This document shows positions 23,914 through 57,140 of a stretch of DNA of 57,458 bases, piece after piece. The first letter of the stretch is position 1. Each line of letters starts with the position of its first letter. The position numbers and the translations under genes are program-made. The notes below the pieces were generated by a model. That model saw nothing but the letters and a program-made list of their open reading frames with translations, ran no database searches and had not been told where the DNA came from. The stretch is from assembly GCA_002869685.1 (NCBI GenBank), contig PKUE01000118.1:1-57458 (forward strand). The letters run 5' to 3'. The DNA is from Desulfuromonas sp. (lineage in GTDB: Bacteria; Desulfobacterota; Desulfuromonadia; Desulfuromonadales; Desulfuromonadaceae).

Positions 23914-24025
23914 CCGTATTATCTCGAGTGGTGGAGGGAATGGCCCTTTGAAACCACAGCAACCGGTCCGCCAGAGGATGCCAGGTGCTAATTCCAACCC
24001 CCCAGGCGGGGGACAGATGAGACGG
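23914..24025 (+). promoter_or_regulatory. SAM-I (S-box) riboswitch upstream of metX
   Basis: The core has the S-box landmarks: GGTGGAGGGAATGGCCC (23930-23946), GAAACC, GCAACC and CCAGGTGCTAATTCCAACC (23981-23999), then GATGAG. Helix P1 is formed by CCGTATTATC (23914-23923) with GATGAGACGG (24016-24025). The expression platform is the terminator at 24076. SAM binding should switch off metX. Confidence 0.92.
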
Positions 24026-36543: not shown

Positions 36544-36917
36544 GGCCGAAGAAGGCCATAAGCCGGGTTCTGTTCCTGAATCTGGTTGCCCGGATTCAGG
36601 TGACGATCATTCCTCTAGGACCGCCGTTGCCGACGGCCTCAAGCAGCCAACCCGAAAGCTTTGGACGAGCCGTCCTCAAACGCTTCCCTATTTGGCCTTG
36701 CTCCGGATGGGGTTTACCGAGCCTCTGGTGTCACCACCAGAGCTGGTGAGCTCTTACCTCACCCTTTCACCCTTACCTGCCGTGGCAGGCGGTCTACTCT
36801 CTGTGGCACTGTCCCTGGGGTCACCCCCGGTTCCCGTTAGGAACCATCCTGCTCTGCGGAGCCCGGACTTTCCTCCCGTTTCTTGCGAAACCGGCGATCG
36901 TCTGTCCTTCTTCGACC
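36544..36917 (-). ncRNA. rnpB: RNase P RNA (type A)
   Basis: The minus strand has the universal core GAGGAAAGTCCGGGCTCC near its 5' end, AGGGTGAAAGGGTGAGGTAAGAGC-type central sequence, and AGAACCCGGCTTATGG close to the 3' end. Helix P1 is formed by CGAAGAAGG at the 5' end and CCTTCTTCG at the 3' end. It is the catalytic subunit partner of RnpA at 0.6 kb. About 374 nt, normal for the type. Confidence 0.95.
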
Positions 36918-46992: not shown

Positions 46993-48528
46993 TCAGGACT
47001 CTTCAAAGCGCAGGTTATATTTTTTGATCTTACGGTGCAGAGTATTGCGGGCAATGCCGAGACTCTTGGCCGTTTCGGTAATGTTCCAGCGATGTTGTTC
47101 CAGCGCTTCCTGGATGGTCTCTTTTTCGCTGTCCTTGAGACCCTGATGGCTGGGTGGCAACAGGTTCTTGCGCGTCATGATGGTGGTCAGGGTTTTTTCC
47201 AACCCGCGCAACGAGTGCCACATCTGGTGTAGTTCACCGGCACTCATTGTTTCGAGCACCTCCTCATTGCCGTATTTCTCCCAGAACCCTTCCAGGGATT
47301 GATTCTGCTCCAGCGGCATGAGATCGGCCTCGGGCAGCGGTGCATTGTCGCAATCATCACCCCGACAGCCGAGCCGTTCACCGAGATGGCTGGGTTGAAT
47401 GACGTCATCGTTACACAGCACAATGGCGCGACGCATGCAGTTGGCCAGTTCCCGGATGTTCCCCGGCCAGTTGTAGCTGTTGAGGCGCTCAAGAGTGGCC
47501 GTAGCCAACGACAGTTTTGGATTGAGCTGTTTGACGAAGAAATCCGCCAGCAGCGAGATATCCTCACGGCGGTCCTGCAGAGCGGGAATTTCCACTTTCA
47601 CGACATTAAGGCGATAATAGAGATCCTCGCGGAACGTTTTTTCTTCGATGGCCTTTTCCAGATCAACGTTGGTTGCGGCGATCACCCGGACATTGGTCTT
47701 GATCGGCGTTTCGCCGCCGACCCGCATGAATTCACCGGTTTCAAGAACGCGCAACAGTTTGACCTGAATCAAGGGACTGGCGTCACCGATTTCGTCGAGC
47801 AGCAGGGTGCCGTGGTTGGCCAGTTCGAAAATGCCGCGTCGGGTGCGGTGGCCGCCGGTAAAGGCGCCTTTTTCATGGCCGAACAGTTCGCTGTCGAGCA
47901 GATTTTCCGGCAATGCACCACAATTGACGGCGATAAAGGACTGGTCGGCACGGTTGGAGGCGGCATGAATAAAGCGCGCCATCACCTCTTTACCGGTGCC
48001 GGTTTTCCCCTGAATCAGTACGTTGATGTTCTTCTTGGCAATTTTGTAGGCCAGCGATACCGTGCGCCGCATGGCCAGGGCATTGCCGACCTTAAAGCCC
48101 ACCGAATCGGCAACCTCGGCCCATTCCTCTTCCGACTGGTTGCCCTGTTGCCGCCGTGAGCCGTAATGGATGGCGCGATCAATCAGATCTTCGATTTCGC
48201 TGATCTCTTCAAAAGGCTTTTCCACGTATTCGTAAGCACCCTGTTGCATGGCGCTCACTGCTGTTTTGATCGTGCTGTAGCCGGTCATGATGATCACTTC
48301 GCAATCAGGCTGGCGGCTTTTGATCAGAGACAACAGTGTCAGGCCGTCGGTATCCGGCAGTTTGAGGTCCACCAGGGCCACGTGAAACGATTTTTCACTT
48401 AATGCGTGCAGGGCTTCCGGTTCGTTGACTGCTGTCGTGACGGCATAGCCTTTGTACTTGAGCAGGCGTCGGAAAAAATTACACACATCCATTTCGTCAT
48501 CGATGATCAGTACGTTAATTGTAGACAA
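46993..48528 (-). CDS. Sigma-54-dependent response regulator
   Basis: A 511-residue NtrC-type regulator: receiver domain with D-D-E (about 10-12), phosphoacceptor Asp in V-D-L-K-L-P (about 54), AAA+ domain with Walker A G-K-T-G-T-G-K-E, the sigma-54 loop G-A-F-T-G-G and Walker B L-L-L-D-E-I-G-D, and a Fis-type helix-turn-helix end N-I-T-E-T-A-K-S-L-G-I-A-R-N-T-L. The loop is G-A-F-T-G-A in most relatives. The TTG at 48528 behind GGGAGAG is preferred to the TTG at 48549. Its likely target is the -24/-12 promoter at 55547. Confidence 0.92.
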   Translation of the reverse strand: MSTINVLIIDDEMDVCNFFRRLLKYKGYAVTTAVNEPEALHALSEKSFHVALVDLKLPDTDGLTLLSLIKSRQPDCEVIIMTGYSTIKTAVSAMQQGAYEYVEKPFEEISEIEDLIDRAIHYGSRRQQGNQSEEEWAEVADSVGFKVGNALAMRRTVSLAYKIAKKNINVLIQGKTGTGKEVMARFIHAASNRADQSFIAVNCGALPENLLDSELFGHEKGAFTGGHRTRRGIFELANHGTLLLDEIGDASPLIQVKLLRVLETGEFMRVGGETPIKTNVRVIAATNVDLEKAIEEKTFREDLYYRLNVVKVEIPALQDRREDISLLADFFVKQLNPKLSLATATLERLNSYNWPGNIRELANCMRRAIVLCNDDVIQPSHLGERLGCRGDDCDNAPLPEADLMPLEQNQSLEGFWEKYGNEEVLETMSAGELHQMWHSLRGLEKTLTTIMTRKNLLPPSHQGLKDSEKETIQEALEQHRWNITETAKSLGIARNTLHRKIKKYNLRFEES

Positions 48529-48579
48529 TGTTGCTCTCCCGGTTGGCAAACATAATCAGTCGGGCTGGAGTCAGCGCGG

Positions 48580-50229
48580 CTATTCTTCCGTTTCCGGCAA
48601 AACCAGTGAAAAAGTACTGCCCTGGCCCGGTGTACTGGTTACTTCTATGGTTCCGTTATGACCCTGGGCAATTCCGAGGCTGACCGAAAGACCGAGGCCG
48701 GTCCCTTTGGTTGCTTCTTTGCTGGTGAAAAACGGGGTGAAAATCTTTTGCAGATTTTTCTCGTCAATACCGCAGCCGTTGTCCTCGACGCTGATAATGG
48801 CCCAGCGCTTGCCATTTTTGGTGCGGACGTGGGTACGGACATGGATCATCTTCTCGTCGTCAAGCTGGCTGTCCAGAGCGTCGCGGGCATTGACCAGCAG
48901 GTTGGTGAGCACCTGTTGGATTTGCGGCCCGTTAGCCGTCAGCGTTGGCAGGTTGGGATCAAGATCGGCAATAATGCGGATCTGGTTGCGGTTGATCTGA
49001 TACTGGATCAGGCTCAGAACCCGTTCCACCTCACTGTTGAGATCGGTGGAACTGACGGCAATCTGATCCTGACGTGAGAACGTCAGCAGGTTTTGAATGA
49101 TCCGCTTGCAGCGCAGGCCGCAGTTGATGATATCGTTGATCTCTTCACTGACATCCTGATCCGCCAGTTCACGGCTGAGCAACTGAGCGGTGCCGATGAT
49201 CACCGTCATCGGGCTGTTCAGTTCGTGTGCAACGCCGGCGGCCATCTCGCCGATGGCGGCCAGTTTGGCCGATTGAACCAGCTGCGCCTCCATTTTCACT
49301 TTTTCGGTGACATCCTTGAGGATGATGGTCATGGCAACCATCTGCCCCTCGTCATTCAAAACAGGATAATGGGAGCGATCAAGAGTCAGTCCCGATTCGT
49401 CGTGGATGCGGATATGCTGCGGCTGCAACGTTTTGCGCATCTCTTCCATCGGGCAATCCACGCACGGGGCATTGAGACCGTGCAGACAGGCATAGCATTT
49501 GTTGCTGTTGGCCTGCTCCCAGGTTTTGCGCATCTCTTCCGGCAAATGGCCGTTGTGCAGAATCACGTTGTTTTCCGTGTCCACCAGGACAATCGGATCG
49601 GTAACCGCACGGAAGGTCTGCTCCCATTCCTGCTTGGCGCGGGACACCTGAGTGTACAGGCGCGAGTTCTGGATACTGATCGACAGATGGTCGGCCAGAT
49701 GTTGAATCGCCGACAGCTCAGCTTCCTGATAGGCATCGCGATGAAAGCTGGCAACCAGTAAGACGCCGATGACTTCCGAACGCACAAACATGGGCGCAAT
49801 GGCCAGCGATTTAAACTCGATCGGGTAAATCGTCGACTGACGTATCTGCGAGAGATAACTGGTGGCCGGGTCGAAACTGGCGGCTTTTTTACTCCGGATA
49901 ACCTGCCAGCTGTAGGAATCTTTCGGCAGGTCGTTCATGGTGCAGAAATCGTGCGGAACGACGGCTTTCAGGCTGAGGCGATCCATGCTCAGGGTGGCAA
50001 CACTGAGAAAATCGCAGGGGATCGCCTGGGGCAACTTAAGGAACGTGCGATCGAGGATATCGCCGATGGTCATGTGGATGCTGATGTCACGGGTCAACTG
50101 GTGAAGGATCTCCAACAGGGTATTCTGCTTGAGAATTTCCTCATTTTTCTTCTTCAACTCAACGTAATAGTTGAGTTTGGAAGAATCGACCCCCGTCAGT
50201 TGTTGTAACAAGTGCTCCTTAGTATCCAT
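48580..50229 (-). CDS. Soluble sensor histidine kinase (GAF-PAS-HisKA-HATPase)
   Basis: A 549-residue kinase without membrane segments. An N-terminal helix is followed by a GAF domain (about 45-200), a PAS domain with C-Y-A-C-x7-C-V-D-C (about 247-261), a phosphoacceptor H in [11 protein letters not shown] (about 331) and an ATPase domain (N-A-R-D-A-L, D-N-G-C-G-I, G-T-G-L-G-L). The four cysteines may bind a metal or cluster, hinting at redox or metal sensing. The ATG at 50229 follows GGAGG; the open frame reaches back into the alcohol dehydrogenase gene. Confidence 0.9.
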
Positions 50230-50245
50230 CGTTCCTCCGGCGCCG

Positions 50246-51394
50246 TTACATGGCTTTGTGGAAAATTTCCGCAATCTGTTCGTAGCTGGCCGGCCTCGGG
50301 TTGGTCACCAGACAGGCATCGTTGAGCGCATTGTGGCTGAGGCGGTCGATGGCATCCAGTGGCAGGCCGATCTGACCCAGTCCCTGATGCAGACCAATGT
50401 CCGCCAGGAGCCGATTCACCGCGACGATGGATTGTCGTGCTGACTCCTCCAGGCTCATGCCGCGCACATGCTCGCCCATGGCGATGGCAATATTACGGAA
50501 TTTCTCCGGGCAGGCCGGAAGATTGAATTCCATGACATGAGGCAGAATGGCGGCGTTGGATTCACCGTGGTGCTTGTCGAGCAGACCGTCCACCTGGTGT
50601 GTCATGGCGTGCGTTGCTCCGAGGATGGCGTTGGACAGCGCCAGACCACCGGTCAGACTGGCCATCGACATGTTGGTGTTGGCATCCATGTCGCTGCGGT
50701 CGGCGACGGCTTGGCGCAGATATTTGGAGGCCAGCTCAATGGTCTTAAGCGAGTGGATCTCTGTCAGCGGTGTGGCGGCCAGCGATACGTAGGTCTCAAT
50801 ACCGTGGGTAAAAGCGTCGATGCCGGTGGCGGCTGCCAATGCCGAATCCTTGGTGCGCAGCAACTCCGGGTCAACAATGGCGATATCCGGCACCAGTGAT
50901 TTGGAGATGATCGACATCTTCAGCTGCCGGGTTGAGTCGACAATGATGGCAAACTGGGTGACTTCGGAACCCGCCCCGGCGGTACTGGGGGCGATCACCA
51001 TCGGCGGCAGCGGCTGGTTGACTTTATTGATCCCTTCGTAGTCGCGCAACTCGCCGCCGTTGGTGGCGAGAATGGCAATCGCCTTGGCGACATCTGTGGG
51101 GCTGCCACCGCCGACGACAACAATGGCATCACAGCCGGATTCCATGTAACGCAACACCCCCTCACGGACCTCATAATCCTTGGGATTGGTGGTCAGTGCG
51201 GCGTAGGTCACCGTATCGAGGCCGCTGGCATGGAGATAATGCTTGGCTTTATCCACCCAGCCGGCATTGATGACGTCCGCGTCACTGACAACAAAGACTT
51301 TTGAGGCGCCGATGCGTAAAGCACTGTCGCCGATCTGGCTGAGACTGCCGCGACCGAAGATCACTTCCGGCATGACAAATTTACTGATGTTCAT
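50246..51394 (-). CDS. Iron-containing alcohol dehydrogenase (minus-strand copy)
   Basis: A 382-residue group III dehydrogenase. NAD-binding G-G-G-S-P-T-D-V-A-K (about 94-103); metal ligands in G-I-D-A-F-T-H-G-I-E (Asp about 192, His about 196), H-A-M-T-H-Q-V-D-G and D-K-H-H-G-E-S-N-A-A. It oxidises alcohols to aldehydes or the reverse. It lies 14 bp after moeA inside the tungstate operon, so co-expression with metal supply is likely. It is a paralogue of the gene at 55725, differing in the H-H-G-E-S loop. Confidence 0.9.
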   Translation of the reverse strand: MNISKFVMPEVIFGRGSLSQIGDSALRIGASKVFVVSDADVINAGWVDKAKHYLHASGLDTVTYAALTTNPKDYEVREGVLRYMESGCDAIVVVGGGSPTDVAKAIAILATNGGELRDYEGINKVNQPLPPMVIAPSTAGAGSEVTQFAIIVDSTRQLKMSIISKSLVPDIAIVDPELLRTKDSALAAATGIDAFTHGIETYVSLAATPLTEIHSLKTIELASKYLRQAVADRSDMDANTNMSMASLTGGLALSNAILGATHAMTHQVDGLLDKHHGESNAAILPHVMEFNLPACPEKFRNIAIAMGEHVRGMSLEESARQSIVAVNRLLADIGLHQGLGQIGLPLDAIDRLSHNALNDACLVTNPRPASYEQIAEIFHKAM

Positions 51395-51408: not shown

Positions 51409-52611
51409 TTACGCATAAGTGCTGCCGATTAGTTGAACATCGACCTGCTCACCGGCCTGAATGTGGTCCGGTGGGGCCGGTAAGATGGCCAAACCGTTGG
51501 CACGAATCATTGTTTTGAGGATGCCGGTATTCTGATCCCCTGAAGTTGTCGCCGTGTAGCGACCATTTTCAATCGTGACATGGACCCGCATAAACTGGGT
51601 GCGCCCCGATTTCTTTTTGATGCCGTCACGAAGTGTCGCCCGCACTGTCGGCTGCAGAACGCTGGTGTGTCCCATCATTTTCAGCAGCGCCGGTTTGACG
51701 AACTCTTCAAAAGTAATCATGGTTGACACCGGATTGCCGGGCAGGGAAAAGATCGGCTTGCTGCCCAAGGTGGCAAACGCCGTAGGTCGGCCGGGCTTGA
51801 TGTCAATCTTCCAGAAAACCGATTCGACACCGAGTTCTTCCAGAATGTCACGCACCAGGTCACGATCACCAGCAGAAACGCCTGCCGAGGTGATCAGAGC
51901 GTCGGCTTTAAGCCCTTCGCTGATTTTCTGCAAATGGCTTTCGCGGTTGTCGCGGGCAATGCCGAGGATGACCGGCTCCGCACCGATCTCTTTCAACGCC
52001 GCCGCGACGGCAAAACTGTTGCAGTTGATAATCTGACTGCTTGACGGGGATGTTCCCGGTTCCACCAGTTCATCACCCGTGGCCAGAATCGCGACGCGCG
52101 GACGGCGGTATACCGGCACGATCACTTTATTGAATGTGGCCAGCAGGCCGATCTCGGCCGGGCGTAACAGAGAACCGGCGCTGAGGATATGTTCGCCGCA
52201 GCAGATATCTTCAGCTTGGACACGAATGTGATCGCCTTTTTTTACGACACCGTGAATGGTTACCTGGTCACCTTTTTCGGTGGTTTCTTCAAAGGGAACC
52301 ACCGCGTCAGCACCGGGAGGGATCGGAGCGCCGGTCATGATGCGCATAGCTGTCCCCGGTGCAACCGGATCGTTGCTTTCGCCACCGGCAGGAATATAGC
52401 CGGAGATGGTCAAGGTGCCACCAGTGCTGCAATCGGCATGGCGGACGGCAAAACCGTCCATGGCTGAGTTGTCCCAGAACGGTAATCCCCAGGGAGCGAC
52501 GATATCCTCGGCGACAATTCTTCCGGTCGCTTCAAGAAGACCGACCCGCTCGACACCGAGCTTGGTGACGTGGTCTAAAATGGCCTGACGTGCCTGTTGA
52601 AAACTAAGCAT
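51409..52611 (-). CDS. moeA: Molybdopterin molybdenumtransferase MoeA
   Basis: A 400-residue protein with P-F-W-D-N-S-A-M-D-G-F-A-V (about 44-56), G-T-A-M-R-I-M-T-G-A-P-I-P-P-G-A-D-A-V-V (about 85-104), T-S-A-G-V-S-A-G-D-R-D (about 246-256) and L-P-G-N-P-V-S (about 293-299). It inserts the metal oxyanion into adenylated molybdopterin. In this operon, after a tungstate transporter, tungsten is the likely metal. It overlaps tupC by 8 bp. Confidence 0.94.
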   Translation of the reverse strand: MLSFQQARQAILDHVTKLGVERVGLLEATGRIVAEDIVAPWGLPFWDNSAMDGFAVRHADCSTGGTLTISGYIPAGGESNDPVAPGTAMRIMTGAPIPPGADAVVPFEETTEKGDQVTIHGVVKKGDHIRVQAEDICCGEHILSAGSLLRPAEIGLLATFNKVIVPVYRRPRVAILATGDELVEPGTSPSSSQIINCNSFAVAAALKEIGAEPVILGIARDNRESHLQKISEGLKADALITSAGVSAGDRDLVRDILEELGVESVFWKIDIKPGRPTAFATLGSKPIFSLPGNPVSTMITFEEFVKPALLKMMGHTSVLQPTVRATLRDGIKKKSGRTQFMRVHVTIENGRYTATTSGDQNTGILKTMIRANGLAILPAPPDHIQAGEQVDVQLIGSTYA

Positions 52612-53299
52612 AAGCTTCTTCCTTTAGTCCCATGTCGTCCGTCGATAGCAGACGTCCGCTTTCCAGCTCAATAATCCGGCTGTTGAGGCGTTGGGCCTGC
52701 GTCAGGTCATGGCTGGCAATAATCACTGTGATCCCCTGATCGGGCAGGGTGCAGATCAGTTGTTCCAGACGTTCGACACTGTATTTGTCCATATTGGCTG
52801 TCGGCTCATCCAGGAGCAGAACTTTCGGTTGTAGGGCCAGAGCTCGGGCTATGGCCACCCGTTTCTGCTCACCACCCGACAGCTCACGAGCATTGCGTTG
52901 GTGGAAATCTCCCAGGCCGACACTCTCGAGAGCGCGGTCAATGGTCTGCTGCGTCTGATTGGAACAGATCCCTTTCAGCCGTAACGCCATGCGCAGGTTG
53001 TCGCTGACGCAGCCGTCAAACAAGTAGGGAGATTGGTGGACCAGAGTGATGTGGCGACGCAACCGTGGCAGGGAGAACCAGCCCCGTTGGACACGGCGTT
53101 GCCTGAAATAGAGTTCACCGCTTTGTGGTGTCAGCAACAGGGCCAGGCAGTTGAGCAGCGTGCTTTTGCCGGAGCCGTTGGCGCCATGCAGCGAATAGAG
53201 ATGTCCGGCTTCGAACGATAACGATTCGATATCAAGAGCATAGCGCTGCTGCTTGTCATAGCGATAGCGTAGCTGTTCGAGGCGGTACAGTTCTTTCAT
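52604..53299 (-). CDS. tupC: Tungstate ABC transporter ATP-binding protein TupC
   Basis: A 231-residue ATPase: G-A-N-G-S-G-K-S-T-L (Walker A about 39-48), E-L-S-G-G-E-Q-K-R-V (signature about 139-148), V-L-L-L-D-E-P-T-A-N-M-D (Walker B), A-S-H-D. It powers the TupB permease, overlapping it by 4 bp. The specificity label comes from TupA. Confidence 0.92.
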   Translation of the reverse strand: MKELYRLEQLRYRYDKQQRYALDIESLSFEAGHLYSLHGANGSGKSTLLNCLALLLTPQSGELYFRQRRVQRGWFSLPRLRRHITLVHQSPYLFDGCVSDNLRMALRLKGICSNQTQQTIDRALESVGLGDFHQRNARELSGGEQKRVAIARALALQPKVLLLDEPTANMDKYSVERLEQLICTLPDQGITVIIASHDLTQAQRLNSRIIELESGRLLSTDDMGLKEEAYA

Positions 53300-53988
53300 C
53301 GGGACCTCTGTTGCAAGAAGTTGAGAAAAATATTAATCGCCAGGGCCACCGATAACAGGATCATGCCCAAAGCCAGACCAAAGGCAAATTCCCCCTTGCT
53401 GGTTTCCAGAGCAATGGCCGTGGTCATGGTGCGGGTATAGCCGCGAATATTGCCACCGAGCATCATGGCGACGCCCACTTCAGCGATAATCCGTCCGAAT
53501 CCGGCGATCAGAGCCGCCATAATGCCGAAACGGATCTCCTTGACCAGCACCATTACCCCGGTCAGTGGTCCGGCACCCAATGTTTGGGCCGTCGGCAAAA
53601 TGCGTGGATCTGAACCAACCACAGCAGCCAGTGTATAGTTGGTGACGATGGGTGTGGCCAGAATGATCTGGCCGATCACCATAGCTGCCGGGGTAAACAG
53701 CAGGCCGAATTGTCCTAACGGACCCTGGCGGCTGAGAAAGCCGTACACCACCAGGCCGACCACCACCGTTGGCAGCGCCATCAACGTGTTCAGAATTGTC
53801 AGGCAAAAAGTTTTGCCACTGAACTGGTTGAGGGCGATGACAATGCCGATGGGCACACTGATCAGTGTGGCGAAAAAAATCGCCATACTGGAGATCGTCA
53901 GGGAGGTGCCAACGGTGTTGAACACCTCCCCATCGAGAGACAGAATCAGCGCAAATGCCGTGCGCAATGATTCAACAATAAAATCCAC
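53296..53988 (-). CDS. tupB: Tungstate ABC transporter permease TupB
   Basis: A 230-residue permease with five to six membrane helices. The ATPase-contact loop is E-I-R-F-G-I-M-A-A-L-I-A-G-F-G-R-I-I-A-E-V-G-V-A (about 148-171), and G-A-G-P-L-T-G-V-M-V-L-V lies before it. TupB-like sequence and gene order fit a high-affinity tungstate importer. Confidence 0.92.
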   Translation of the reverse strand: MDFIVESLRTAFALILSLDGEVFNTVGTSLTISSMAIFFATLISVPIGIVIALNQFSGKTFCLTILNTLMALPTVVVGLVVYGFLSRQGPLGQFGLLFTPAAMVIGQIILATPIVTNYTLAAVVGSDPRILPTAQTLGAGPLTGVMVLVKEIRFGIMAALIAGFGRIIAEVGVAMMLGGNIRGYTRTMTTAIALETSKGEFAFGLALGMILLSVALAINIFLNFLQQRSR

Positions 53989-53997
53989 GGCTTATCC

Positions 53998-54804
53998 TTA
54001 CTTCTCGTAAGTAAAGAATAGTTGTTGACCGTTCTTGCGGTATCCGTCAATCAGTTTCTGACCGGTTTCACCGGTGAGGAAGTTAGCGAATGCCGTGGCC
54101 AGCTCGTACTTGGCATGAGGGTGCTTGGCCGGGTTGACTGGGATAACTCCATACGGGTTGAACAGGCGGCTGTCGCCTTCAACGGCAACCTTCAGGGTGA
54201 TCTTTCCCTGATAGGCAATGTAAGTACCACGGTCGGTCAAAGCATAACCCTGACGCTCATCGGCCATGGTCAGAACTTCACCCATGCCACGACCAGCTTC
54301 GAGATACCAGTCGCCAGCCGGTTTCAGGTCCGCCGCTTTCCACAACGACAACTCTTTAAAGTGAGTACCCGACTCATCGCCACGAGACACAAAGGTGGCT
54401 TTGCTTTCAGCGATTTTGGCCAGAGCCGCTGCGACATCAGTAGTGCCCTTGATCCCTGCCGGATCGGCTTCGGGGCCAACAACAACAAAGTCGTTGTACA
54501 TGACATCCTGACGGTCTACACCGTAGCCGCCTTCAACAAACGCGTTCTCTTTGGCGCGGGCGTGTACCAGAATCACATCAACATCTCCCGCCATGCCCAG
54601 CTTGATGGCTTTGCCGGTACCGACAGCAATCACGTCGACCTTGCAGTCGTTTTGTGCCTCAAAGGTGGGCAGCAGAGCGCTGAGCAGTCCAGAGTTTTCC
54701 GTCGAGGTGGTTGTCGCCAGTTTCAGGTGCTCCTGCGCCAGGGCGGTGGTGGCGACAAGGCCAACCATCAACAGTGAAAGCAGGATCAGTTGCAGTTGTT
54801 TCAT
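53998..54804 (-). CDS. tupA: Tungstate-binding periplasmic protein TupA
   Basis: A 268-residue protein: signal peptide (about 1-23, ending T-A-L-A-Q), then L-A-T-T-T-S-T-E-N-S-G (about 29-39), whose T-T-T-S is the oxyanion-binding motif of TupA. F-V-S-R-G-D-E-S-G-T-H and Y-A-L-T-D-R-G-T-Y also fit. The ATG at 54804, 7 bp after GAAGGA, gives a clean signal peptide. The long in-frame extension to 55062 would translate the leader RNA and is rejected. The start overlaps the stop of a 30-codon leader ORF (ATGA). Confidence 0.94.
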   Translation of the reverse strand: MKQLQLILLSLLMVGLVATTALAQEHLKLATTTSTENSGLLSALLPTFEAQNDCKVDVIAVGTGKAIKLGMAGDVDVILVHARAKENAFVEGGYGVDRQDVMYNDFVVVGPEADPAGIKGTTDVAAALAKIAESKATFVSRGDESGTHFKELSLWKAADLKPAGDWYLEAGRGMGEVLTMADERQGYALTDRGTYIAYQGKITLKVAVEGDSRLFNPYGVIPVNPAKHPHAKYELATAFANFLTGETGQKLIDGYRKNGQQLFFTYEK

Positions 54805-54893
54805 AACGATTTTTCCTTCAAATAAAAGGGTTGAATTACATGACCCTCCCATGATGGAAAAAAGCTTACGACGTAAAAACCGTCGGTATCCAT
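54801..54893 (-). CDS. 30-codon leader ORF between riboswitch and tupA
   Basis: ATG 54893 to TGA 54801 reads M-D-T-D-G-F-Y-V-V-S-F-F and ends L-K-E-K-S-L. A consensus AAAGGAG lies 10 bp upstream, inside the 3' strand of the riboswitch closing helix. Its stop overlaps the tupA start as ATGA, the usual sign of translational coupling. No family recognised; the peptide may matter less than its translation. It also spans a short hairpin with T-run (54857-54888). Confidence 0.65.
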   Translation of the reverse strand: MDTDGFYVVSFFPSWEGHVIQPFYLKEKSL

Positions 54894-54899
54894 TGTCGG

Positions 54900-54998
54900 T
54901 CAGCTCCTTTCCAAACGCGGGAGGCTCGCCAGTTTCCCGAGGAACCCATTGGTCTGTCACCATGGGGTGTCCCGTTAGGTGATCAGACTCGGAGAATA
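54900..54998 (-). promoter_or_regulatory. Molybdenum/tungsten-cofactor-type riboswitch upstream of tupA
   Basis: On minus the leader carries CTCCGAG, then stem P2 GTCTG-A-TCACC with GGTGA-CAGAC (54952-54961), a small hairpin CTCG/CGAG, the block GCCTCCC, and TTGGAAAGGAG. CTCC and GGAG close P1. The same elements, with changed but still paired stem bases, occur before the AOR gene at 56992. The 3' part matches what I recall of the E. coli moaA Mo-cofactor leader. The short (~100 nt) form fits tungsten-cofactor variants that lack one stem. Confidence 0.72.
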
Positions 54999-55019
54999 TG
55001 CAACAGGGGCTCGCCGTGG

Positions 55020-55057
55020 CGTATACGCACCTGTTGTCTTTGTGCTGGTCGTATACG
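55020..55057. promoter_or_regulatory. Two CGTATACG palindromes upstream of the tup leader
   Basis: The self-complementary octamer CGTATACG occurs at 55020-55027 and 55050-55057, exactly 30 bp apart (about three helical turns). They lie just upstream of the leader RNA, where the tup promoter is expected. An operator, for example for the ModE-type regulator, is plausible but unproven. Confidence 0.5.
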
Positions 55058-55192
55058 TGCAAGTCCCGTGCACAATTTCACCGATTACGTTATTAAAAAT
55101 GGACAACCTGATTCCACTGGGGTGAAAAGGTGTCTTCCTGTCCGGTGTAACCCTCCCTGTTTCACGTTATCTCGGCACACGGTTGTTGTGGA

Positions 55193-55506
55193 TGTTCCAT
55201 TGTTGAGCGACGGTAATGCCGGGCTCTGTCTAGCTACAATGTTTGTGCTTAAAGTGTAACAAAGTGGAACACATTGTCACGAATTTGTCGGTGTGATTGG
55301 TCCATGGTGGCGCATCTTGACGGGCGTGTTGGCGGTGGGGGTGAGAAAGTTGATCCGACAACAGGGGGATGACATTGTTCCATGGTGACACGCTGAAGAG
55401 CCAAAGGGTGTTACAGACTGTGCCGAACTGAGACAAAGCGTACCGTTGACGGCAAGTTGTCGCGGCGCGATTTTGTAGACGTTTTGGCTGTGTTCCACTA
55501 TGTAAC
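55193..55506 (+). promoter_or_regulatory. Cluster of repeated candidate enhancer sites upstream of the sigma-54 promoter
   Basis: Related sites built on T-G-T/G-T-C-C-A: TGTTCCA at 55193; the reverse of TGTGTTCCACTTTGTTAC at 55256-55273; TTGGTCCATGGTGGCGC at 55297-55313; TTGTTCCATGGTGACAC at 55375-55391; TGTGTTCCACTATGTAAC at 55489-55506. The second and last agree in 16 of 18 bases. Clustered upstream sites are typical for NtrC-type activators. No gene is seen in this roughly 650-bp stretch. Confidence 0.6.
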
Positions 55507-55546
55507 TGTTCTGAAATACGGAGGTTTTAAGCAAAGTTTTAAAAAG

Positions 55547-55562
55547 TGGCATCCTAGTTGCT
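55547..55562 (+). promoter_or_regulatory. Sigma-54 (-24/-12) promoter of the plus-strand alcohol dehydrogenase
   Basis: TGGCATCCTAGTTGCT matches TGGCA-N6-TTGCW exactly, with correct GG to GC spacing. It lies 163 bp before the ATG, giving a leader of roughly 150 nt. A sigma-54 activator gene is in the neighbouring operon. Confidence 0.87.
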
Positions 55563-55724
55563 CTAAGGGAGGGTACGGTTGTCCGTCGGTGAGCCGGGTG
55601 TTCCGGTTCCGTATTCCTTCCTCTCTATTGTTAATCGCGATCGATTAAGGAGAGTGCTGGAAGATGAGTAAACTCATGCGGACAAGTTATCTTCATTCAC
55701 AACAGCAACAAAGGAGAGAACAAA

Positions 55725-56888
55725 ATGGCATTAGCAGATCAAACTTACGGTTTCTTCATTCCGACAGTCTCTTTGATGGGTGTAGGCTCTGCAAAAGAAA
55801 CCGGTGACCAGGCAAAAGCTCTGGGTGCTACCAAGCTGCTCATCGTTACTGACGCTGGTCTGGCCGCCATGGGCGTTGCCGACACCATCAAAGGTTATGT
55901 AGAAGCCGCAGGCTTGAACGCTGTCGTTTTTGACGGTGCTGAGCCTAACCCCACCGACAAAAACGTTGCCGATGGTGTTGAAGCGTACAAAGCAAACAAC
56001 TGCGACGGCATCATTACCCTGGGCGGCGGCAGCTCACACGACTGTGGTAAAGGTATTGGCCTGGTTATGGGTAACGGCGGTAACATCCGTGATTTCGAAG
56101 GTGTGAACAAGTCCACCAAGCCCATGCCTCCTTTCCTGGCAATCAACACCACCGCTGGTACCGCTTCAGAAATGACCCGTTTCTGCATCATCACCAACAC
56201 CGATACCCACGTTAAAATGGCGATCGTTGACTGGCGCTGCACCCCGAACATTGCGATCAATGATCCTGTTCTGATGGTTGGCAAGCCGGCTCCTCTGACT
56301 GCTGCAACTGGTATGGACGCACTGACTCACGCTGTTGAGGCTTATGTTTCTACCATCGCTACTCCGATCACTGACGCTTGCGCTATCAAAGCGATTGAGC
56401 TGATCGCTGAGTACCTGCGCCAAGCTGTTGCTAACGGCGAGAACCTCGAAGCTCGTGACAAAATGGCTTACGCTGAGTACCTGGCAGGTATGGCATTCAA
56501 CAACGCCAGCCTCGGTTACGTTCACGCTATGGCTCACCAACTGGGTGGTTTCTACAACCTGCCTCACGGTGTTTGCAACGCGATCCTGCTGCCGGTTGTT
56601 TGCGAATTCAACGCCATCGCTAACGTGAAGCGTTTCGCTGACATTGCTGTTGCTATGGGCGAGAACATTGATGGTCTGTCTGACGTTGAAGCTGCTGAAG
56701 TCGCTATCGCTGCAATCCGTCGTCTGTCCTCTGACGTTGGTATCCCTGCAGGTCTGACTGAGATCGGTGTTAAAGAAGAAGATCTCAAGATCATGGCAGA
56801 AAACGCTCAGAAAGATGCCTGCATGCTGACCAACCCCCGCAAAGCGAAGTTGGAGCAAGTGATCGACATCTACAAGGCAGCAATGTAA
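55725..56888 (+). CDS. Iron-containing alcohol dehydrogenase (plus-strand copy)
   Basis: A 387-residue group III dehydrogenase. NAD-binding G-G-G-S-S-H-D-C-G-K-G (about 99-109), N-T-T-A-G-T-A-S-E-M-T-R, metal ligands in G-M-D-A-L-T-H-A-V-E (Asp about 196, His about 200), H-A-M-A-H-Q-L-G-G-F and N-L-P-H-G-V-C-N-A. Codon use is strongly biased (CTG, GGT, GAA, AAA), as for very abundant proteins. It has AAAGGAGAG at -14. With the AOR gene behind it, it suggests alcohol to aldehyde to acid oxidation. Confidence 0.95.
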   Translation: MALADQTYGFFIPTVSLMGVGSAKETGDQAKALGATKLLIVTDAGLAAMGVADTIKGYVEAAGLNAVVFDGAEPNPTDKNVADGVEAYKANNCDGIITLGGGSSHDCGKGIGLVMGNGGNIRDFEGVNKSTKPMPPFLAINTTAGTASEMTRFCIITNTDTHVKMAIVDWRCTPNIAINDPVLMVGKPAPLTAATGMDALTHAVEAYVSTIATPITDACAIKAIELIAEYLRQAVANGENLEARDKMAYAEYLAGMAFNNASLGYVHAMAHQLGGFYNLPHGVCNAILLPVVCEFNAIANVKRFADIAVAMGENIDGLSDVEAAEVAIAAIRRLSSDVGIPAGLTEIGVKEEDLKIMAENAQKDACMLTNPRKAKLEQVIDIYKAAM

Positions 56889-56942
56889 TACCGGTCCGCA
56901 AGGACTGTTCTGACGGCTACCAATGTCGGAAACAACCAGCAA

Positions 56943-56969
56943 GGGAGAGGCTTTGGCCTCTCCCTCTTT
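56943..56969 (+). terminator. Terminator after the alcohol dehydrogenase
   Basis: GGGAGAGGC pairs with GCCTCTCCC (9 bp, 4-nt loop) followed by TCTTT. It separates the dehydrogenase from the AOR leader. Confidence 0.85.
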
Positions 56970-56991
56970 ACACACGAATTACGTTTAAAAC

Positions 56992-57096
56992 AAGAACTCC
57001 GAGCCTGCCCCCCCTACGAAGGACGTCTTTAAGGGGACAGGCCGCCGGGTTGCACTGGAAACGGTGTGGCCTCCCAGTCTTGGAAAGGAGCTTCTT
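56992..57096 (+). promoter_or_regulatory. Molybdenum/tungsten-cofactor-type riboswitch upstream of AOR
   Basis: P1 is AAGAACTCC (56992-57000) with GGAG-C-TTCTT (57087-57096). CTCCGAG starts the core; P2 is GCCTG-CCCC with GGGG-A-CAGGC (57033-57042); then a hairpin around GCACTGGAAACGGTGTG, the block GGCCTCCC (57068-57075) and TTGGAAAGGAG. It shares these blocks with the tup leader while the P2 bases differ and still pair. Its gene is a tungsten enzyme, in line with sensing the tungsten cofactor. Confidence 0.75.
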
Positions 57097-57099
57097 ACC

Positions 57100-57123
57100 A
57101 TGGGTTTAACGTTTAGACAGTGA
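57100..57123 (+). CDS. 7-codon leader ORF before AOR
   Basis: ATG 57100 to TGA 57121-57123 encodes M-G-L-T-F-R-Q. AAAGGAG (57084-57090) lies nine bases upstream, inside the 3' strand of riboswitch P1. The stop is 17 bp before the AOR start, close enough for coupling. It parallels the leader ORF before tupA; alone it would be weak evidence. Confidence 0.45.
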   Translation: MGLTFRQ

Positions 57124-57140
57124 AAGGGAGACAGACTCAC

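Follow-up and report, generated by a model that had tools for sequence, protein, structure and literature searches.

Two back-to-back riboswitches of the molybdenum/tungsten cofactor family, with different expression platforms, at a tungstate-uptake and AOR locus of Desulfuromonas

Why should one locus carry two copies of the same cofactor riboswitch on opposite strands, one in front of the genes for tungstate uptake and the other in front of a tungsten enzyme? The question is raised by a 57,458 nucleotide (nt) stretch of DNA from Desulfuromonas sp. (contig PKUE01000118.1; hereafter 'the window'), in which the leaders of tupA and of AOR were originally predicted to hold such switches, with one kind of control for both. 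Scanning the window with cmscan against 4227 Rfam families places both leaders in RF01055, the riboswitch family of the molybdenum cofactor (Moco) and tungsten cofactor (Tuco), with scores exceeding the gathering threshold of 36 bits (Table 1). Each match spans model positions 1-135 and reaches slightly beyond the segment first proposed. The motifs CTCCGAG, CCTCCC and TTGGAAAGGAG are common to the two leaders, and their P2 stems differ in sequence and nevertheless pair, exactly as had been described. The target genes were also correctly named, the AOR product matching PF02730 and the tupA product matching both PF12849 and, as its only NCBIfam match, TupA, at 228.8 bits and hence below the curated cut-off of 400. 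In the cmscan alignment the AOR copy has gaps where the model has P3, and the tupA copy is nearly empty there. Both copies have a GNRA-type P4 loop (GAAA, within GGAAAC), and CCUAA..CAUGG and CCUAC..UAAGG occupy, by position and unscored, the place of the tetraloop receptor in the P2 bulge. Both leaders are hence members of the Moco/Tuco family that lack P3, and their fold is conserved.

The evidence for this conservation comes from the order, taken to be Desulfuromonadales, in which RF01055 is matched (E 0.001) in 67 of 136 genomes, at 147 places; the analyses of the order cover 144 of these, the other three being without fetched DNA. Covariation was tested on 45 of the 144 aptamers, using 29 stated pairs, 500 shuffles and five measures. 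Bases pair in 85.7% of cells, two-sided changes are found at 17 of the 29 pairs (127 cells), and not one of the 500 shuffles matches the real alignment on any of the measures, which supports the claim that the fold is kept by compensatory changes and the expectation that the paired segments would be conserved in related leaders. Sliding the partner by one to three columns reduces the proportion of cells that pair to 38-54% and the covariation score from 0.307 to 0.067-0.151, although up to 16 pairs retain some two-sided change in this control. Two-sided changes are seen at all five pairs of the P2 base; P1 is nearly invariant, and the two distal P2 helices are weaker, with 62-65% of cells paired. 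Aptamers in the order measure 116-129 nt, with two exceptions of 147 and 286 nt, and two long aptamers were omitted from the consensus fold. A third RF01055 copy is present on another contig of the same genome (G000:C139:7042-7162, plus strand), upstream of a second AOR that is identical, by eye, to that of the window at 102 of the 106 available residues. Both contigs, of the window (57458) and of this copy (7514), stop 106 codons into these nearly identical genes, so that the repeat probably broke the assembly.

The two switches part company downstream of the aptamer. A single hairpin detector (score at least 20), applied to an equal 200 nt of AOR and non-AOR leaders, reports a terminator-like hairpin in 41 of 74 non-AOR leaders but in none of 67 AOR leaders; in 24 of the 41, the hairpin pairs the GGAAAGG of P1 over a run of at least seven pairs. 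The three AOR leaders in a set from elsewhere in the phylum are likewise without one. Three leaders of the order lack the end motif, namely two before TetR genes in genome G124 and the AOR leader G035:520681, and are omitted from the terminator, duplex and ATG counts, the last being retained in the site-accessibility runs. In AOR leaders a ribosome site of their own follows the aptamer closely. The loop that follows CCUCCC is UUUC in 22 of 68 AOR aptamers, compared with 0 of 76 others (5 and 4 unparsed, respectively); where this loop occurs, the ribosome site is often its full complement, GAAAGGGAG. The duplex energy of each aptamer with its own site is reached by only 2 of 2000 swapped-pair permutations (63 leaders), and the pairing of the extension, 2.22 against 1.48 when permuted, by 1 of 5000 (46 leaders, reduced to 36 genus-unique rows); both tests are uncorrected for descent beyond genus. 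A second set, of named genomes, holds 80 AOR loci, 26 of them with a switch upstream of AOR (27 matches, one at a locus end). Here a GGGAG site is found at 23 of the 26 loci with a switch and at 9 of 52 without (Fisher p 1.3e-9, uncorrected for descent), two loci having too little upstream DNA to be counted. The tup and AOR copies therefore have different expression platforms, contrary to the single kind of control that had been proposed, and their signs may be opposite.

The layout recurs. Back-to-back switches no more than 6 kb apart occur in nine genomes of five genera, 1.7-2.1 kb from each other: five belong to one genus (G000, G027, G033, G034, G035) and one to each of four others (G001, G044, G124, G135). 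Opposite AOR stand tup genes in seven of the pairs, beginning with tupB in G001, and a Porin_O_P porin in two. In all eight other paired genomes the space between the switches holds an iron-type alcohol dehydrogenase (ADH) 82-95% identical to that of the window. The pair is not universal, as the 66 genomes with records include 16 with switches at both AOR and tup, 29 with AOR but not tup and 18 with tup but not AOR. The original prediction was thus right about the opposite-strand arrangement, which is not a single case; the observation itself is confirmed, its earlier interpretation partly supported. The kind of switch is already known, and what is newly described is this recurring layout, which is conserved and informative. 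Judging from the protein families, the locus looks like an alcohol-oxidation module, in which ADH would convert alcohol to aldehyde and AOR aldehyde to acid, with tungstate uptake adjoining.

Table 1. Features of the two switches and their surroundings in the window
Feature	Position	Strand	Basis
P3-lacking RF01055 aptamer before AOR	56985-57107	+	cmscan 68.4 bits, E 2e-14
P3-lacking RF01055 aptamer before tupA	54886-55006	-	cmscan 63.5 bits, E 5.7e-13
CCTCCC + AGTCTT, segment complementing the AOR ribosome site in many relatives	57070-57081	+	
GGAAAGGAG, P1 3' strand and possible short-ORF ribosome site	57082-57090	+	sequence; spacing 9 to ATG
Short open reading frame (ORF), 7 codons, stop touching AOR ribosome site	57100-57123	+	
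GGGAG, AOR ribosome site	57126-57130	+	sequence
AOR, first 106 codons, cut by contig end	57141-57458	+	PF02730 120.5 bits
GGAAAGGAG, P1 3' strand of tupA aptamer	54904-54912	-	sequence, cmscan alignment
GCTTTTTTCC, predicted anti-P1 strand, pairing GGAAAGGAGC in ligand-free fold	54856-54865	-	leader folds, prediction only
GGGAGGG, predicted 3' arm of weak terminator-like hairpin	54844-54850	-	leader folds
tupA, tungstate-binding protein	54001-54804 (stop codon 53998-54000)	-	TupA; PF12849
tupB-like permease	53296-53988	-	position, name from context; no Pfam family at E 0.001
tupC-like ABC ATPase	52604-53299	-	PF00005, name from context
moeA	51409-52611	-	NF007960 380.6 bits (below cut-off of 440); TIGR00177 above its cut-off
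Iron-type alcohol dehydrogenase between the two switches	55725-56888	+	
GGGAGAGGC/GCCTCTCCC hairpin between ADH and AOR switch	56941-56966	+	same hairpin in G027, G033, G034, G035

What the different platforms might achieve can be put as follows, with a probability of roughly 0.55: both leaders would sense how much tungsten pterin cofactor is present, the tup copy switching OFF and the AOR copies ON, where the ligand and the signs are what we infer. Before tupABC-moeA the switch would provide feedback, cofactor closing P1 and so releasing an off-hairpin both of whose arms would otherwise be captured by GGAAAGGAG and CCUCCC of the aptamer. In the predicted ligand-free fold of the window's tupA leader, GGAAAGGAGC pairs with GCUUUUUUCC and CCUCCC (54919-54924) with GGGAGG, the GGGAGGG of Table 1 being complementary to it. 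The AOR copies are more likely to be ON switches, in which, without cofactor, the CUCCC of the aptamer (often CUCCCUUUC) would pair with the GGGAG of the AOR site (often GAAAGGGAG), and with cofactor bound would be kept in P4/P5, leaving the site free, so that the tungsten enzyme would be made when its cofactor exists. The extended match is missing from the main AOR leader of the window's genus, where a start codon lies 9 nt behind a P1 3' strand that resembles a ribosome site; cofactor might there close off a short ORF whose end lies on the ribosome site of AOR, thereby relieving AOR. This fuller version, in which one cofactor and one aptamer class give opposite outputs (uptake off, enzyme on) and the sign is inverted in the genus by a short ORF fed from P1 and ending at or close to the AOR ribosome site, we regard as doubtful.

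Uptake OFF and AOR ON would be consistent with the contrast in platforms and with published induction of AOR by tungstate. Switches are predicted before aorA1, aorA2 (Pcar_0456) and aorA3 (Pcar_0665) of Pelobacter carbinolicus but not before aorA4, according to the available parts of PMC3543383, which report that the aorA genes respond to growth mode too. The available parts of PMC4275255 describe the Pcar_0665 and Pcar_0456 isoforms as overexpressed in tungstate-rich relative to molybdate-only medium; taken together, the two partial sources fit an ON switch. If the AOR copies do act in this direction, the family would match enzyme supply to cofactor supply, beyond feedback. Two copies on uptake and enzyme genes also form an internal test, opposite directions being expected of one cofactor. 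The opposite-sign reading is thus testable, and unproven.

A number of results weigh against it. The hairpin scores below 20 in 33 of the 74 non-AOR leaders, including that of the window's tupA, where it is weak (score 14) and has a poor T-rich tail, better ones being found in G027, G034 and G035. The predicted accessibility of the tupA ribosome site does not change (0.21 vs 0.21), although folding without constraint over an extended site region gives 0.57 vs 0.21. On the other strand, the loop of the window's AOR aptamer reads AGTC, so that none of the four extension positions matches the ribosome site, and the predicted accessibility of that site is 0.42 when the aptamer forms, against 0.58 when P1 is absent, which is no ON signal. 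Across AOR leaders the predicted values are 0.38 and 0.20, and the shift exceeds 0.1 upwards in 36 of 65 leaders and downwards in two. Leaders with shuffled linkers shift nearly alike, however (0.385 vs 0.246, with 47% above 0.1), which implies that most of the gain reflects the intrinsic anti-Shine-Dalgarno nature of CUCCC. Among the named genomes, some of the AOR controls that lack a switch are more distantly related; GGGAG is present at L144, L147 and L151 without an upstream switch call; and at L149, L150, L153, L157 and L164, from Geobacteraceae, a Pelobacter metagenome-assembled genome and an unplaced deltaproteobacterium, the UUUC loop faces an unmatched flank. The full match is found in just four of the 26 rows, three of them contigs that the first set already contains, as it does some of the 26 in general. 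Finally, higher protein levels with tungstate would look alike if they arose from loss of apo-protein or from transcriptional control.

Could both copies instead be OFF switches, like the Escherichia coli moaA leader, with cofactor closing P1 and hiding the ribosome site? We think this rather unlikely, and equally so the associated idea that the window's short ORF is a coupling device, on which ribosomes load at GGAAAGGAG in the absence of cofactor and then re-initiate at AOR. Repression is what the E. coli element does, according to the available parts of PMC2408646, and the available parts of PMC11260477 report that the gene behind a B12 riboswitch depends on translation of an upstream ORF (uORF). 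The short ORFs of the genus also stop between -34 and +25 relative to the AOR start, a range that permits re-initiation, but four of the ten extend beyond that start in another frame, ending at +5, +5, +20 and +25. Furthermore, an ATG 4-12 nt behind the aptamer is found in all ten of the genus's AOR leaders whose motif is readable (nine at spacing 9, one at 4) and in four of seven in g16, but in only one of 50 elsewhere in the order, where it is in frame with AOR. Coupling through a short ORF consequently cannot be the general mode of AOR control, and the higher abundance with tungstate of P. carbinolicus AOR proteins preceded by predicted switches, in the partial accounts cited above, also speaks against repression. 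An eleventh AOR leader of the genus, G035:520681, has an ATG behind GGAG despite its unreadable motif. It is quite conceivable, if somewhat short of an even chance, that the short ORF is an untranslated by-product, its ATG being retained because it pairs within the RNA or simply inherited: the peptides are not the same from copy to copy, with lengths of 6 to 22 codons, and the ten rows come from a single genus. The recurrence of the ATG at spacing 9 in nine of these rows, despite differing flanks of paralogous leaders, is harder to reconcile with this. A 30-codon leader ORF overlapping the tupA start was itself dropped as a candidate, given an ATG in just three of six non-AOR leaders of the genus, one of the three in frame with tupA, and a ribosome site predicted to be mostly paired either way (0.33 and 0.0 unpaired with and without the aptamer).

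Chance resemblance or decay of the switches could accommodate the weak tupA terminator taken alone, but is barely credible: the E values of Table 1 and the copies at the same place in relatives contradict it, and the covariance-model scores had already ruled out chance. A more serious alternative, possible although we would not favour it, is that the RNAs sense Moco, or the cofactor of either metal, rather than Tuco specifically, and that loss of P3 characterizes the lineage. The proposal that Moco RNAs without P3 sense the tungsten cofactor comes from Regulski et al. 2008 (PMC2408646, in its available parts), in whose survey 17 of 19 organisms with such RNAs carry tungsten-cofactor genes; direct binding could not be shown in that paper. 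Inspection by eye of 75 aptamers from other parts of the phylum, a portion of its matches, shows no P3, and the genes behind them include 13 moaA-like and seven moeA-like, with 29 left without assignment. A comparison of P3 with gene type was dropped, there being no P3-bearing copy to provide a contrast. The absence of P3 also before moaA- and moeA-like genes means that the trait seems to follow the lineage, and does not discriminate for tungsten sensing in the phylum; the original prediction of a tungsten-sensing variant was correct as to the missing P3, which is not established here as a mark of tungsten. By eye, the long aptamers of the phylum have inserts in distal P2.

Better support for tungsten comes from the choice of genes. 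Clustering of the first downstream genes in the order gives AOR at 68 places, tupA at 27, other tup first genes at 15, Porin_O_P porins at 12 and moeA at eight, followed by TonB receptors (3), acylating acetaldehyde dehydrogenase (3), TetR (2), sequences too short to assign (2) and one each of moaA, SSADH, Porin_4 and a TiaS-like gene. Two of the AOR assignments were made from sequence context, the frame being wrong, and tblastn confirms tupA, tupB or tupC at all 15 of the 'other tup' places; profile searches covered single members of some clusters, and moaA, SSADH and the moeA genes outside the window were named from sequence. The molybdenum gene modA occurs at 119 places in 82 genomes (E 1e-20), 78 of them in 48 switch-bearing genomes, and never near a switch, though contig breaks limit the search: 26 of the 119 share a contig with one, the nearest at 19.6 kb. 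The switch is therefore linked to the tungsten genes tup and AOR, here and elsewhere, and not to modA, with moeA, moaA and others under it too; this choice of targets speaks against the Moco or either-metal alternative.

The switch also flags genes of uncertain tungsten role. Porin_O_P-type outer-membrane porins follow it in seven genomes (L044, L056, L062, L068, L078, L079 and L118; profile match for L068 only), in five of which two tandem copies precede the porin; these are candidate tungstate porins. TonB-dependent receptors follow it at L038, L047 and L094 (profile for L038 only), with terminators that do not face GGAAAGG. Acylating acetaldehyde dehydrogenase, at L050, L061 and L090 (profile for L050 only), is perhaps a tungsten-free stand-in for AOR. 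The two copies before TetR-like genes in G124 (L130 and L131; 41.3 and 39.9 bits) lack the usual 3' end and are possibly decaying switches.

Several features of the window touch on transcription of the locus. The hairpin between ADH and the AOR switch is strong, with T-rich tails in G027, G033, G034 and G035 and a weaker one in the window, where the terminator scan reports the other strand only. If it does terminate, transcription of AOR would require read-through or a separate promoter within a very short stretch. A sigma-70 promoter search found one match against 1.5 expected. The only -24/-12 match in the window, TGGCATCCTAGTTGCT at 55547-55562 (plus strand), lies upstream of ADH and is presumably of the sigma-54 type; shuffles contain 0.15 such matches on average, and 12 of 100 have at least one. 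At 46993-50274 are genes that resemble, by eye, those for a histidine kinase and a response regulator of the sigma-54 type. Elsewhere cmscan finds the ordinary SAM riboswitch (23916-24023, plus strand) and RNase P RNA (36544-36913, minus strand).

None of the listed titles and abstract openings from the open-access literature refers to paired divergent switches, to an AOR switch that activates, or to a short ORF combined with a Moco switch. The available parts of the Geobacter metallireducens and G. bemidjiensis genome papers mention no Moco switch before tup or AOR, and a Geotalea daltonii paper was set aside, the riboswitch in its available part being a B12 switch. A close relative is the 'Tuco' subclass of Regulski et al., which, in the available parts of PMC2408646, shares the core, the P1-P2-P4 fold, the GAAA loop, the missing P3 and the tungsten-related genes downstream, and has both terminator and ribosome-site platforms; the back-to-back pair, the P1-fed short ORF and an activating member are not described there. 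In the same partial source a ribosome site lies within the P1 stem of the E. coli moaA leader, as it may in the AOR leader of the window, but the E. coli element possesses P3, and its site serves the gene itself where here it would serve a seven-codon ORF. In a related bacterium, P. carbinolicus, aorA1-aorA3 encode the same enzyme behind predicted switches of this family, and the available parts of PMC3543383 report expression by growth mode but neither platform nor sign. The B12 riboswitches of Mycobacterium tuberculosis, although of another aptamer class and controlling other genes, resemble the window's AOR leader in combining a riboswitch and a short upstream ORF on one gene, and their uORFs have effects of both signs (PMC11260477, available parts).

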